From the NCBI GenBank assembly GCA_024695665.1, contig JAILHT010000057.1:1-64000 (forward strand): a stretch of DNA of 64,000 bases. Reading direction: 5' to 3'. The notes beneath the pieces are model-generated. The model searched no databases and had not been told where the DNA came from. It saw only the letters and a program-made list of their open reading frames with translations. Source of the stretch: Lachnospiraceae bacterium (lineage in GTDB: Bacteria; Bacillota; Clostridia; Lachnospirales; Lachnospiraceae). Of the stretch, positions 49,348 to 54,130 are shown piece by piece (the stretch's first letter is position 1; every line of letters starts with the position of its first letter). A program made the position numbers and the translations under genes.

Positions 49348-50268
49348 ATGGAATATATAAGAAATAAAACGGAATTCAATATAAAAGAAAATACTGCAGT
49401 CTCTCTGGGAAAGTTTGACGGGATACACAGAGGACATGATCTATTAATGCAGAAGGTTATTGCAAAGAAAAAGGAGAACCTCGCATCGTTGGCATTTACA
49501 TTTGATATGCCAACCCGAAAACTTCAAGATCCCAAAGCTGACGATAAGGTTATCACGACAAATAGTGAAAAAGCACTTGTATTTGAGAGAATTGGTATTG
49601 ATTATCTGATTGAGTGTCCTCTCGTTGATGAAGTGATGAAGATGGAGCCTGAGGCGTTTATAAAGAAATTGTGTGATGAACTTCACATGAAATATGTTGT
49701 GGTAGGACCGGATTTCCATTTTGGATATAAGAGAGCCGGAGATTACAACACTCTCATAAAGTATCAGAAAAAATACGGATATGAAGTTGAAGTTGTACAT
49801 AAACTAAAAGATGATGGGTGGGATATCAGCAGTACCAGAATAAGGGATGCCTTAAAAAAAGGTCTTATAAGTGACGTGAACAGACTTCTCGGATACGATT
49901 ATTTTATGGAGGGGGTTGTCATTCACGGTAACCAAATCGGAAGAAAAATGAGTATTCCAACTGTAAATATCGCTATTCCGGAGAATAAGGAGTTACCTCC
50001 CTTTGGAGTGTATGCCACCATAACCGAAATCAGTGGAAAAAGCTATTGTGGAGCTACCAATATAGGCATAAAGCCTACGATACCCGGAGAAAACAAAGTG
50101 GGTGCCGAAACAAATCTATTTGATTTTAACGGAGATATTTATGATGAAAGAATAATCGTAAAATTCTATAAATATATTCGACCGGAGAAGAAATTCGAAT
50201 CGATTGAGGAACTCAAATCACAGATAGAAAAAGATGTTGAGGCAATAAAAGATGTGTTTAAAATGTGA
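49348..50268 (+). CDS. ribF: Bifunctional riboflavin kinase/FAD synthetase
   Basis: The N-terminal FMN adenylyltransferase domain has LGKFDGIHRGHDLLM and a late SSTRIRDALKKG motif. The C-terminal riboflavin kinase domain has HGNQIGRKMSIPTVNI and GVYATI. It converts riboflavin to FMN and FAD. It ends the rimP-ribF operon, and the WalR-like repeat begins at its stop codon. Confidence 0.95.
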   Translation: MEYIRNKTEFNIKENTAVSLGKFDGIHRGHDLLMQKVIAKKKENLASLAFTFDMPTRKLQDPKADDKVITTNSEKALVFERIGIDYLIECPLVDEVMKMEPEAFIKKLCDELHMKYVVVGPDFHFGYKRAGDYNTLIKYQKKYGYEVEVVHKLKDDGWDISSTRIRDALKKGLISDVNRLLGYDYFMEGVVIHGNQIGRKMSIPTVNIAIPENKELPPFGVYATITEISGKSYCGATNIGIKPTIPGENKVGAETNLFDFNGDIYDERIIVKFYKYIRPEKKFESIEELKSQIEKDVEAIKDVFKM

Positions 50269-50270
50269 AA

Positions 50271-50287
50271 TGTTACGAAAATGTTAC
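50271..50287 (+). promoter_or_regulatory. WalR-type direct repeat (TGTTAC-N5-TGTTAC)
   Basis: Two perfect copies of AAATGTTACGA lie head to tail (50268-50278, 50279-50289). Their hexamers fit exactly the Bacillus WalR (YycF) consensus TGTWAH-N5-TGTWAH. The repeat ends eight bases upstream of the -35 of a NlpC/P60 wall hydrolase, a class of gene under WalRK control in Bacillus and Staphylococcus. The regulator itself is not in the window. Confidence 0.75.
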
Positions 50288-50294
50288 GATAATA

Positions 50295-50323
50295 TTGACA
50301 CAAAAATGCTGTATTGCTATACT
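50295..50323 (+). promoter_or_regulatory. Promoter of the NlpC/P60 hydrolase gene
   Basis: Consensus TTGACA and TATACT have a 17-base spacer and a TGC extended -10. The start would be near 50330, putting the centre of the WalR-like repeat near -51. Confidence 0.9.
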
Positions 50324-50370
50324 ATGGGATGTTGAGTTTTAAGTTTATGTTTATTACGAGGACACAGATA

Positions 50371-51471
50371 ATGAAGAATTCTTATATATGTTTAAAATTA
50401 TTCGGCTTTGTTGCCGCAGCATTTATATCGGTTTTTACCATAGGAAATATGAATGTTTCCGCTGGAGAAGTAACAGCCGGTGTTTCGGGCGTGCTCAGTG
50501 ATGCATTGACCGAGGATAAGAGTGCAACAGCCGGAATTTCATCATATCTTGCCGACTGTATGGAGACATCAAATGCGCAGGCAACATTAATGTATGCGGA
50601 GGATGCAACAACGGCCGCAGGTTACGGCGCAGTTGCCGGTTTTACGAACATTGGAATAGCAATCGTTGATGGCAATTTAAATGTCAGAGAAAGTGCATCA
50701 GAGGATGCTGAACTCGTCGGAAAAATGCCGGGAGATTCAGCATGTGAAATAGTTAGTACCGAAGGTGAATGGACACTTATCGAGTCCGGTGATGTTACCG
50801 GATATGTAAAGAGCGAGTATCTTATTTCAGGTTCAGAAGCCAGAGAATATGCCAAGGGACTTGTTACAACAGTTGCTTCATGTACAACAACAACACTTCG
50901 AGTAAGACAGGAAGCATCTACCGAAAGCGAGATCATAGCTTTGATGGCAGAGGGTGAGGAGCTTGAAGTTGTCGAAGATATGGGAGATTGGATCAAGGTA
51001 AATGTCGATGATGAGGAAGGATACATCAGTGCCGAATATGTTGATATTGAGGATAAGCTTCCTACAGCTATGACAATGTCTGAAGTTCAGTACGGACAGG
51101 GTGTATCTGATGTGAGAGTTGCTCTTGTACAGTACGCATGTCAGTTTGTCGGAAATCCTTATGTTTGGGGTGGAACAAGCCTTACAAACGGAGCCGACTG
51201 CTCCGGATTTGTATTATCTATTTTTGCAAATTACGGAATTTCATTGCCGCATTCATCTGCAGCGCAGGCCGGATACGGTACAAGAATAGATGCTTCAGAG
51301 GCGCAACCGGGTGATTTGTTCTTCTACGGAAGCGGAAGCTCAATCAGCCATGTTGCAATATATATCGGTAACGGTCAGATTGTTCACGCCAGCAACGCGA
51401 GAACGGGAATCAAGATTTCAAGTGCTTACTACAGATCACCAATCTGTGTTACCAGACTTTTAGGTAATTAA
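50371..51471 (+). CDS. Secreted cell-wall hydrolase: two SH3b domains plus NlpC/P60
   Basis: This 366-residue protein has a signal peptide (about residues 1-32), a low-complexity spacer and two bacterial SH3 domains (LNVRESASEDAEL near 105, LRVRQEASTESEI near 180). The C-terminal NlpC/P60 endopeptidase has Cys277 (GADCSGFV), His327 (SHVAIYIG) and His339 (QIVHAS). It should cut peptidoglycan stem peptides between D-iGlu and the diamino acid. ATG at 50371 follows GAGGAC. Upstream in-frame ATGs give no signal peptide start and lack a ribosome site. Expression is probably WalR-dependent. Confidence 0.93.
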   Translation: MKNSYICLKLFGFVAAAFISVFTIGNMNVSAGEVTAGVSGVLSDALTEDKSATAGISSYLADCMETSNAQATLMYAEDATTAAGYGAVAGFTNIGIAIVDGNLNVRESASEDAELVGKMPGDSACEIVSTEGEWTLIESGDVTGYVKSEYLISGSEAREYAKGLVTTVASCTTTTLRVRQEASTESEIIALMAEGEELEVVEDMGDWIKVNVDDEEGYISAEYVDIEDKLPTAMTMSEVQYGQGVSDVRVALVQYACQFVGNPYVWGGTSLTNGADCSGFVLSIFANYGISLPHSSAAQAGYGTRIDASEAQPGDLFFYGSGSSISHVAIYIGNGQIVHASNARTGIKISSAYYRSPICVTRLLGN

Positions 51472-51614: not shown

Positions 51615-51881
51615 ATGATTTCTAAAGAGAAGAAGACAGCCATCATCAATGAGTATGCAAGAACAGCAGGAGATACAGGATCTCCGGAAGTTCAGGTAGC
51701 ACTTATCACAGAGAGAATCAAAGAGCTCACAGAGCATCTTAAAGAGAATCCAAAGGATCATCATTCAAGACGTGGTCTTTTAAAGATGGTTGGACAGAGA
51801 AGAGGAATGCTTGCATACCTCAAGAAGACTGACATCGAGAGATATCGTGCGCTTATCGATAAGCTCGGACTCAGAAAGTAA
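51615..51881 (+). CDS. rpsO: 30S ribosomal protein S15
   Basis: This 88-residue protein starts [20 protein letters not shown] and contains the family core [30 protein letters not shown] and [15 protein letters not shown] at 51615 is eight bases after AGGAGG. An in-frame ATG 75 bases upstream lies in the leader without a ribosome site. It is followed by a strong terminator and then pnp, the usual neighbour. Confidence 0.97.
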
Positions 51882-51893
51882 TTCAGTCAACCT

Positions 51894-51927
51894 AATAGAG
51901 CGGAGAATAATCTCCGCTCTATTTTTT
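51894..51927 (+). terminator. Terminator after rpsO
   Basis: A stem of 11-13 pairs (TAGAGCGGAGA/TCTCCGCTCTA) with an ATAA loop is followed by six T. It is a strong intrinsic terminator between rpsO and pnp. Confidence 0.95.
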
Positions 51928-51936
51928 ACAAAACAC

Positions 51937-52014
51937 GAACAAGGTTTGTTGCCGAGACCACTGATGTGTCTATAAGATTGTTATATACAGATCAGTAGTT
52001 TCGGAACCTTGTTC
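51937..52014 (+). promoter_or_regulatory. Long imperfect hairpin immediately upstream of pnp
   Basis: GAACAAGGTT/AACCTTGTTC (ten perfect pairs) encloses, after a five-base bulge, a second helix CCGAGACCACTGAT/ATCAGTAGTTTCGG. That helix has one mismatch and one G-U pair, with a loop of about 25 bases. Together these give about 23 pairs ending 10 bases before the ribosome site. In E. coli a long pnp leader hairpin cut by RNase III is the basis of PNPase autocontrol. A similar logic is possible here. Confidence 0.7.
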
Positions 52015-52036
52015 ATTCATGAAAAAGGAGAAAAAA

Positions 52037-54130
52037 ATGTACAAAAGTTTTTCAATGGAGCTTGCAGGTCGTACACTTACGGTTGATGTTGACCGTGTAG
52101 GTAAGCAGGCTAACGGATGTGCTTTTATGCACTATGGTGAAACAACAGTATTGTCTACAGCGACAGCTTCAGACAAACCTAGAGACGGAATCGATTTCTT
52201 CCCATTAAGTGTAGAGTTTGAGGAGAAGATGTATTCAGTTGGTAAAATCCCGGGTGGATTCAATAAGCGTGAAGGAAAGGCTTCGGAGAATGCTGTTCTC
52301 ACAGCTCGTGTTATAGATCGTCCTATGAGACCGCTTTTCCCAAAGGACTATAGAAATGACGTTACTTTGAACAACCTTGTAATGAGTGTTGATACAGAGT
52401 GTCGTCCTGAACTTGTAGCAATGCTTGGTTCTGCAATTTCAACATGTATTTCAGATATTCCTTTCGATGGACCATGTGCAATGACACAGGTTGGAATGGT
52501 TGACGGAGAATTTATCTTCAACCCTTCACAGAAAGTATGGGATGAAGGAGATTTACAGCTCACAGTTGCTTCAACAGCACAGAAGGTTATCATGATTGAA
52601 GCCGGAGCAAACGAGATTCCTGAGGATAAGATGATTGAGGCCATCTATAAAGCTCATGATATCAACCAGACTATTATTGAGTTCATCAACAAGATGGTTG
52701 CCGAAGTTGGAAAGCCAAAGCATGATTACACAAAGTTTATCATCCCTGATGAGATGTTCGAAAAGATAAAAGAGATAGTTCCACCGACAGAGATGGAGGA
52801 AGCTGTCTTCACCGATAAGAAGCAGGAACGTGAGGAAAATATCAAGGCTATAACCGAAAGACTTGAAGAGGCTTTTGCTGAGAATGAAGAATGGCTTGCG
52901 CTTCTTTCAGAGGCGGTATATCAGTATCAGAAGAAGACCGTCAGAAAGATGATCTTAAAGGATCACAAACGTCCGGACGGAAGAAGAATAGATCAGATAA
53001 GACCTCTCGCAGCTGAGGTTGATATTGTTCCTCGTGTTCACGGATCGGCTATGTTCACAAGAGGACAGACACAGATCTGTGACGTTGTAACACTTGCTCC
53101 GTTATCTGAAGTTCAGAGAATTGACGGACTTGATGAGAATATTACAACAAAGAGATATATGCATCATTATAACTTCCCTTCATATTCTGTAGGTGAGACA
53201 AAGCCTTCAAGAGGACCGGGAAGAAGAGAGATTGGACATGGAGCATTGGCTGAGAAAGCACTTGTTCCTGTACTTCCTTCCGAGGAGGAGTTCCCATATG
53301 CTATTCGTGCCGTATCCGAGACTTTTGAGTCAAACGGATCAACATCAATGGCTTCAACATGTGCATCTTGTATGTCACTTATGGCTGCCGGTGTACCGAT
53401 TAAGAAGATGGTTGCCGGAATCTCATGTGGTCTCGTAACGGGAGACACAGATGATGATTATATCGTTCTTACTGATATCCAGGGTCTTGAGGACTTCTTC
53501 GGAGATATGGATTTCAAGGTTACAGGTACAAAAGACGGAATTACAGCTATCCAGATGGATATCAAGATTCACGGACTTACCCGTCCGATAGTTGAGGAAG
53601 CTATCAGAAGAACAAGAGAAGCAAGATTCTTCATTATGGATGAGTGTATGTCAAAGGCAATTGCCGAGCCTAGAAAAGAAGTGAGCAAATATGCTCCTAA
53701 GATCATTCAGATTCAGATTGATCCTTCTAAGATTGGTGATGTTGTAGGACAGAGAGGAAAGACCATCAATGAGATTATCGATCGTACAGGAGTAAAGATT
53801 GATATCACAGATGACGGATCTGTTTCTGTTTGTGGTACAGAAAAAGAGAAAATGGATGAAGCTATGCATATGATCGAAATGATAGTAAGTGATTTCGAGG
53901 AAGGTAAGCTTTACGAAGGAGTTGTTATAAGCATCAAAGAATTCGGCGCATTTGTTGAGTTCGCTCCGGGAAAAGAGGGAATGGTTCACATTTCAAAGAT
54001 TGCCAAAGAACGTATCAACAGAGTTGAGGATGTTCTTACATTAGGCGACAAAGTTAAAGTTGTATGTCTTGGAAAAGACAAGATGGGAAGAATCAGCTTC
54101 TCCATCAAGGATGTTCCGGCAAACGCGTAA
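52037..54130 (+). CDS. pnp: Polyribonucleotide nucleotidyltransferase (PNPase)
   Basis: This 697-residue enzyme has two RNase PH cores (first with GETTVLSTATAS, second with HGSAMFTRGQTQ and the active-site DPEE-equivalent region). A helical linker and a C-terminal KH domain (IGDVVGQRGKTINEI) and S1 domain (GVVISIKEFGAFVEF) complete it. It degrades RNA 3' to 5' with phosphate. ATG at 52037 is six bases after AAGGAG. The ATG at 52019 precedes that site. Expression may be controlled by the leader hairpin. Confidence 0.96.
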   Translation: MYKSFSMELAGRTLTVDVDRVGKQANGCAFMHYGETTVLSTATASDKPRDGIDFFPLSVEFEEKMYSVGKIPGGFNKREGKASENAVLTARVIDRPMRPLFPKDYRNDVTLNNLVMSVDTECRPELVAMLGSAISTCISDIPFDGPCAMTQVGMVDGEFIFNPSQKVWDEGDLQLTVASTAQKVIMIEAGANEIPEDKMIEAIYKAHDINQTIIEFINKMVAEVGKPKHDYTKFIIPDEMFEKIKEIVPPTEMEEAVFTDKKQEREENIKAITERLEEAFAENEEWLALLSEAVYQYQKKTVRKMILKDHKRPDGRRIDQIRPLAAEVDIVPRVHGSAMFTRGQTQICDVVTLAPLSEVQRIDGLDENITTKRYMHHYNFPSYSVGETKPSRGPGRREIGHGALAEKALVPVLPSEEEFPYAIRAVSETFESNGSTSMASTCASCMSLMAAGVPIKKMVAGISCGLVTGDTDDDYIVLTDIQGLEDFFGDMDFKVTGTKDGITAIQMDIKIHGLTRPIVEEAIRRTREARFFIMDECMSKAIAEPRKEVSKYAPKIIQIQIDPSKIGDVVGQRGKTINEIIDRTGVKIDITDDGSVSVCGTEKEKMDEAMHMIEMIVSDFEEGKLYEGVVISIKEFGAFVEFAPGKEGMVHISKIAKERINRVEDVLTLGDKVKVVCLGKDKMGRISFSIKDVPANA

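Follow-up and report, generated by a model that had tools for sequence, protein, structure and literature searches.

A conserved WalR-type box at an SH3-NlpC/P60 wall hydrolase promoter in a Lachnospiraceae bacterium, and two promoter architectures among its relatives

This analysis identified a box, TGTTAC-N5-TGTTAC, at positions 50271-50287 of the 64-kb window (the whole stretch of DNA analysed), just upstream of the promoter of an SH3-NlpC/P60 wall hydrolase gene. Based on its sequence and its conservation in relatives, it is very probably a genuine WalR-type operator. Boxes of this kind are associated with wall-hydrolase promoters in two geometries, and the genome carries a regulator-kinase-lipoprotein operon that could encode the system acting on them. 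In the preferred reading, to which a probability of roughly two in three is given, the box is the operator of a WalR/MtrA-type regulator of the OmpR family, most likely that encoded on contig C64 with its adjacent kinase, activating this nlpC gene and repressing hydrolase genes on contigs C79 and C127; the regulator, the signs and the signal are what we infer.

The hydrolase gene (50371..51471, plus strand) encodes a protein of 366 aa with the domain order SH3-SH3-NlpC/P60 (Pfam NLPC_P60 3.6e-28, SH3_3 5.8e-25). Its start is probably the ATG, and there is an in-frame TTG at 50314. Directly upstream is ribF (49348..50268, plus strand; Pfam Flavokinase and FAD_syn), which was used as the marker of the orthologous position. 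A RibF scan of named genomes gave mostly distant matches, the best being Lachnospiraceae bacterium RM5, with 41% identity. The downstream neighbour (51616..51881, plus strand) is presumably rpsO, a name assigned from the order infB-rbfA-truB-ribF-rpsO-pnp, and rpsO homologs lie downstream of nlpC in several relatives. Around the rpsO-pnp gap (51894-52209, minus strand), sub-threshold Rfam matches to FasX and rliD were obtained, and the same gap shows an inverted repeat, GAACAAGGTT ... AACCTTGTTC; this feature is more likely to be a pnp leader hairpin than a true match to FasX or rliD. At the nlpC promoter itself, the Rfam search gave no riboswitch or other leader RNA match.

Two copies of the 11-base sequence AAATGTTACGA stand in tandem on the plus strand at 50268..50289 (50268-50278 and 50279-50289), as the initial annotation had described, and place the TGTTAC half-sites (50271-50276 and 50282-50287) five bases apart in an exact fit to the Bacillus consensus TGTWAH-N5-TGTWAH. 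OmpR-family regulators typically bind direct repeats with a period of 11 bp. The reported overlap with the ribF stop region amounts to a single base: the stop codon is 50266-50268, its last base falls in the repeat, and the box begins after it. The near-perfect extended promoter that had been assigned to the gene is borne out, with a -35 element TTGACA at 50295..50300, a 17-base spacer and an extended -10 element TGcTATACT at 50315..50323 (TATACT 50318-50323), matching 11 of the 12 consensus bases; the gap from the end of the box (50287) to TTGACA is seven bases, not the eight first given. As with all promoters here, this one is computed, not mapped, and transcription is expected to start near 50330. 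When the region is aligned with those of sister species G001 and a second relative, G168, the box, the -35 and the extended -10 are conserved and most of the spacer has diverged; conservation in close relatives, one of the points on which the initial annotation had staked its proposal, is found for the box. A tentative, degenerate third half-site, TATTGA (50293..50298), continues the 11-bp phase of the box and overlaps the -35; the sister species has TGTTGA at the corresponding position.

In its loose form the consensus alone is weak evidence, because TGTWAH-N5-TGTWAH is matched once in the window against 0.37 matches expected. Genome-wide, this loose pattern shows no enrichment, with 29 matches and 29 for the control pattern read backwards. 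The strict form, TGTTAC-N5-TGTTAC, has three matches in the genome, every one immediately preceding the gene of an SH3-containing wall hydrolase: the box in the window, one upstream of another SH3-NlpC/P60 gene, a paralog (C127:2211-2227), and one upstream of an SH3-Hydrolase_2 gene (C79:16576-16592). The C127 and C79 boxes are in reverse orientation, just downstream of the -10. In the sister species, the same three promoters keep both box and geometry. Over 61 genomes there are 81 strict matches against 35 for the control, many of the 81 just upstream of wall-hydrolase genes (NlpC/P60, Hydrolase_2, LysM-G5-M23, G5-3D, SLT and CAP).

Of 79 mismatches in the boxes, G>A at positions 2/13 accounts for 51 and C>A at positions 6/17 for 24 (75 of 79 together), so TRTTAC-N5-TRTTAC is taken as the working motif. 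Random matches would scatter mismatches across all positions. A score matrix trained on the relatives' boxes, with the genus of this genome left out, gives 24.8 bits at 50271-50287, where the runner-up in the 64 kb has 10.1 bits; the matrix is partly circular, since the boxes were chosen by similarity to TGTTAC, and the mismatch pattern and the locking of position are not. The pairing of the second and third half-sites (50282-50298) has the third best score in the window, 9.7 bits. A matrix match on C18 is within coding sequence and was taken as chance.

Not all NlpC/P60 genes belong to the regulon, as a CwlO/PcsB-like coiled-coil NlpC/P60 gene in the same genome (L333:1088-2359, G000:C142) is without the box. 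A LysM-G5-M23 gene was also sought in this genome, and a weak M23 match was all that was obtained. Elsewhere, in some relatives (L117, L134, L147, L164), a strict box is present upstream of Bac_transf sugar transferases, an FtsK-like translocase and a MurA-like gene, the last identified by eye. One genome, G018 (L129, L155-L163), has 13 strict boxes against none for the control, with an array of overlapping repeats in L129, and by these counts it may have an unusually large candidate regulon.

The arrangement of the box was compared in 100 NlpC/P60 homologs of the same family and order, some of them from incomplete genomes, taking the best-scoring promoter of each (own script) and allowing up to two mismatches within 60 bp of it. 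The box is present at 92 of the 100 promoters, against eight for the reversed-pattern control. In 66 it lies downstream of the -10, reading GTAACA-N5-GTAACA in the sense of the gene, most often 15 bp from the -10, a second and lower peak lying at 6 bp. At another 22 promoters, including that of the gene in the window, TGTTAC-N5-TGTTAC ends 6-9 bp upstream of the -35, or, in two cases, at 18 bp, which is 7 plus one 11-bp repeat. Other geometries account for four promoters only. The weaker -10 sequence TATACT is found at 12 of the 22 upstream-type and 7 of the 66 downstream-type promoters (uncorrected for relatedness), an excess consistent with a need for an activator in the upstream type. A strict rule joining orientation to position was considered and set aside, as it is broken by LysM-G5-M23 peptidase genes (L151, L161, L173 and L183, in G023, G018, G009 and G015), in which a strict forward box is 5-6 bp downstream of the -10.

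In Staphylococcus aureus, whether a WalR site activates or represses depends on its position and on neither its sequence nor its orientation: sites upstream of the -35 activate, and those between or downstream of the -35 and -10 repress (PMC10746227). The signs predicted in this family rest on analogy with that rule, by which activation is expected for the ribF-linked nlpC and repression for the genes on C79 and C127. A regulator dimer would occupy the two head-to-tail half-sites, which at a spacing of 11 bp lie on the same face of the helix, and from just upstream of the -35 would help RNA polymerase, so that nlpC would rise when the wall-homeostasis signal is on; the third half-site, overlapping the -35, would fit polymerase contact there. 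Through the boxes just downstream of the -10, the same regulator would repress the NlpC/P60 paralog on C127 and the SH3-Hydrolase_2 enzyme on C79. One signal would then swap hydrolases, the ribF-linked gene going up and the other two going down. Because the other two strict boxes are reversed and downstream of the -10, a repressing geometry, the system is not simply one in which WalR activates hydrolases.

It is also conceivable, if unlikely, that the WalR/MtrA-like regulator binds the upstream site and represses or merely fine-tunes from it, in which case both architectures would be repressive and there would be no switch of sign. The promoter, with 11 of 12 consensus bases and an extended -10, is already near consensus and may need no activator, and an oligomer reaching the third half-site over the -35 could block polymerase. 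Upstream WalR sites activate in S. aureus, however (PMC10746227), and the excess of the weaker -10 at upstream-type promoters, uncorrected for relatedness, also argues against repression from this position.

For the activating and repressing regulator of the preferred reading, the best candidate is on C64 (G000:C64:19206-19883, minus strand). It is the best match of the genome to the WalR model, at 273 bits; this is below the 340-bit cut-off of the equivalog model NF040534 (NCBIfam), which only 2 of the 14 control-set genomes pass. The adjoining kinase is likewise the best match to the WalK model, at 236.5 bits over its C-terminal half, against a cut-off of 725 bits for NF033092. It has HisKA and HATPase_c domains and two hydrophobic segments, and a PAS domain was not found in the Pfam search. 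The DNA-binding domain of the regulator has 50.5% identity to that of Bacillus subtilis WalR and is the best of 12 regulators tested (99.0 bits, the next having 78.6); the recognition helices are RTVDVHVRRLREKIE here and RTVDVTVRRLREKIE in B. subtilis, and one residue differs over RTVDV(H/T)VRRLREKIE. VicR, YycF and WalR are among the solved domains nearest to this one, and for the full-length protein the closest solved chain is RegX3, followed by MtrA. The operon order is comEA-like, regulator, kinase, GerMN lipoprotein, comEC-like. The kinase is directly upstream of the GerMN gene in all 30 loci examined, and a GerMN homolog is present in 59 of the 61 genomes. As the equivalog thresholds were tested and missed, the system is described as WalR/MtrA-like and is not filed as WalRK. 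The proposal that WalRK is wired to this hydrolase is thus upheld for a conserved WalR-type operator and for a WalR-like regulator and kinase in the genome, and is not upheld for the name; the operon looks equally like MtrAB-LpqB.

Further OmpR-type regulators are present in the genome, and there is a small chance that the operator is real and bound by one of these, for example the C160 pair (regulator G000:C160:52327-53004 and adjacent kinase, near mutS2 and an HtrA-like gene). It ranks second with both the WalR model (249.8 bits) and the WalK model (223.2 bits), and it has the HtrA-like protease gene nearby; in Bacilli, an htrA-like gene stands beside walRK. The recognition helices of the OmpR family are alike, so similarity is no proof of specificity. 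Against this, the DNA-binding domain of the C160 regulator scores 20 bits lower against WalR than the C64 domain does, and the solved structures that it matches best are SaeR domains. A chance tandem duplication beside the promoter, for which the background frequency of the loose consensus in window and genome might speak, is very improbable and already contradicted by the comparative data: the position-locked box at homologous promoters, the lead of the matrix score in the window and the conserved footprint.

Where ribF is directly upstream of the homolog, the architecture is of the upstream type at 16 promoters and of the downstream type at 21. The upstream state requires two changes on the RibF tree, against about 12 in shuffles, and three on the NlpC tree, against about 20, many branches of both trees having low support. 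A single upstream clade is not rejected on the RibF tree (p-AU 0.475). Downstream is the commoner state and is also that of the sequences sampled at order level, therefore the upstream state is probably derived. From the trees, it probably arose once, perhaps with one reversal (L268) and a few stray cases, which vary by tree (L260; L254 and L303). One NlpC promoter (L322, G184:C1) has two boxes, a perfect one in reverse orientation, 13 bp downstream of the -10, and a forward one with a single mismatch, 29 bp upstream of the -35, and is possibly an intermediate between the two architectures. The history may then be one of ancestral WalR/MtrA-like repression of SH3-NlpC/P60 hydrolases from a box downstream of the -10; in the clade to which this genome belongs, the ribF-linked gene would have come to carry its box upstream of the -35, in opposite orientation, giving activation of the same ortholog with the other hydrolases still repressed. 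Such a fixed inversion of sign, through which one signal swaps hydrolases, is a proposition to which even odds are given.

WalRK is a much studied and mostly essential regulator of the wall whose direct clostridial sites are ill defined. An open-access literature search found no description of the TRTTAC motif or of the two architectures. The present results offer a sharp motif and a ready set of targets over roughly 90 genera, together with the prediction that in this family the system acts on most NlpC/P60 genes as a repressor and not as an activator. They also provide a naturally occurring example in which the placement of one operator appears to have reversed the regulatory sign of an orthologous promoter.

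The WalRK system of Bacilli (YycFG/VicRK) recognises TGTWAH-N5-TGTWAH, and its targets include lytE, cwlO, yocH and iseA. The box in the window has the same direct repeat, 11-bp period and exact fit to this consensus, and the targets here are likewise wall hydrolases, including NlpC/P60 enzymes. The D,L-endopeptidase activity of B. subtilis has a set point, which WalR~P maintains through activation of lytE and cwlO and repression of iseA (PMC7299342). Activator and repressor positions in one regulon are another common feature (PMC10746227, PMC7299342), the signs here being predicted. Unlike in Bacilli, the half-site here is the stricter TRTTAC, the NlpC/P60 boxes in this family are for the most part at the repressing position, the regulator and kinase fall under the equivalog cut-offs, and a GerMN lipoprotein gene follows the kinase. 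The cytoplasmic PAS domain of B. subtilis WalK was not found in the C64 kinase.

Clostridioides difficile provides a clostridial WalRK, encoded by walA-walR-walK-truA2; the operon includes a lipoprotein gene, and its WalK lacks PAS (PMC9210968). The C64 operon is similar in its lipoprotein gene and in a kinase in which no PAS was found. In C. difficile, however, the lipoprotein gene lies upstream of walR and its product is a predicted beta-propeller (PMC9210968). The Wal sites of that species were predicted with the Bacillus and S. aureus consensus patterns, and its Wal-OFF set has no annotated peptidoglycan gene (PMC9210968), in contrast to the wall-hydrolase boxes found here.

The other system that the C64 operon resembles is actinobacterial MtrAB-LpqB, which also has wall-enzyme targets, those of MtrA including ripA and rpfB. 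The order of regulator, kinase and GerMN lipoprotein is shared with the MtrAB-LpqB layout. The DNA-binding domain of the C64 regulator scores nearer to WalR/VicR than to MtrA, and unlike MtrAB-LpqB its operon has comEA and comEC neighbours and belongs to a different phylum. The likeness extends to the operator: the Corynebacterium glutamicum MtrA half-site is n-A/G-T-a-A-C-a (PMC6265350), and the half-site here is the reverse complement of that consensus, so that the box reads as an [AG]TAACA direct repeat (GTAACA) on the other strand.
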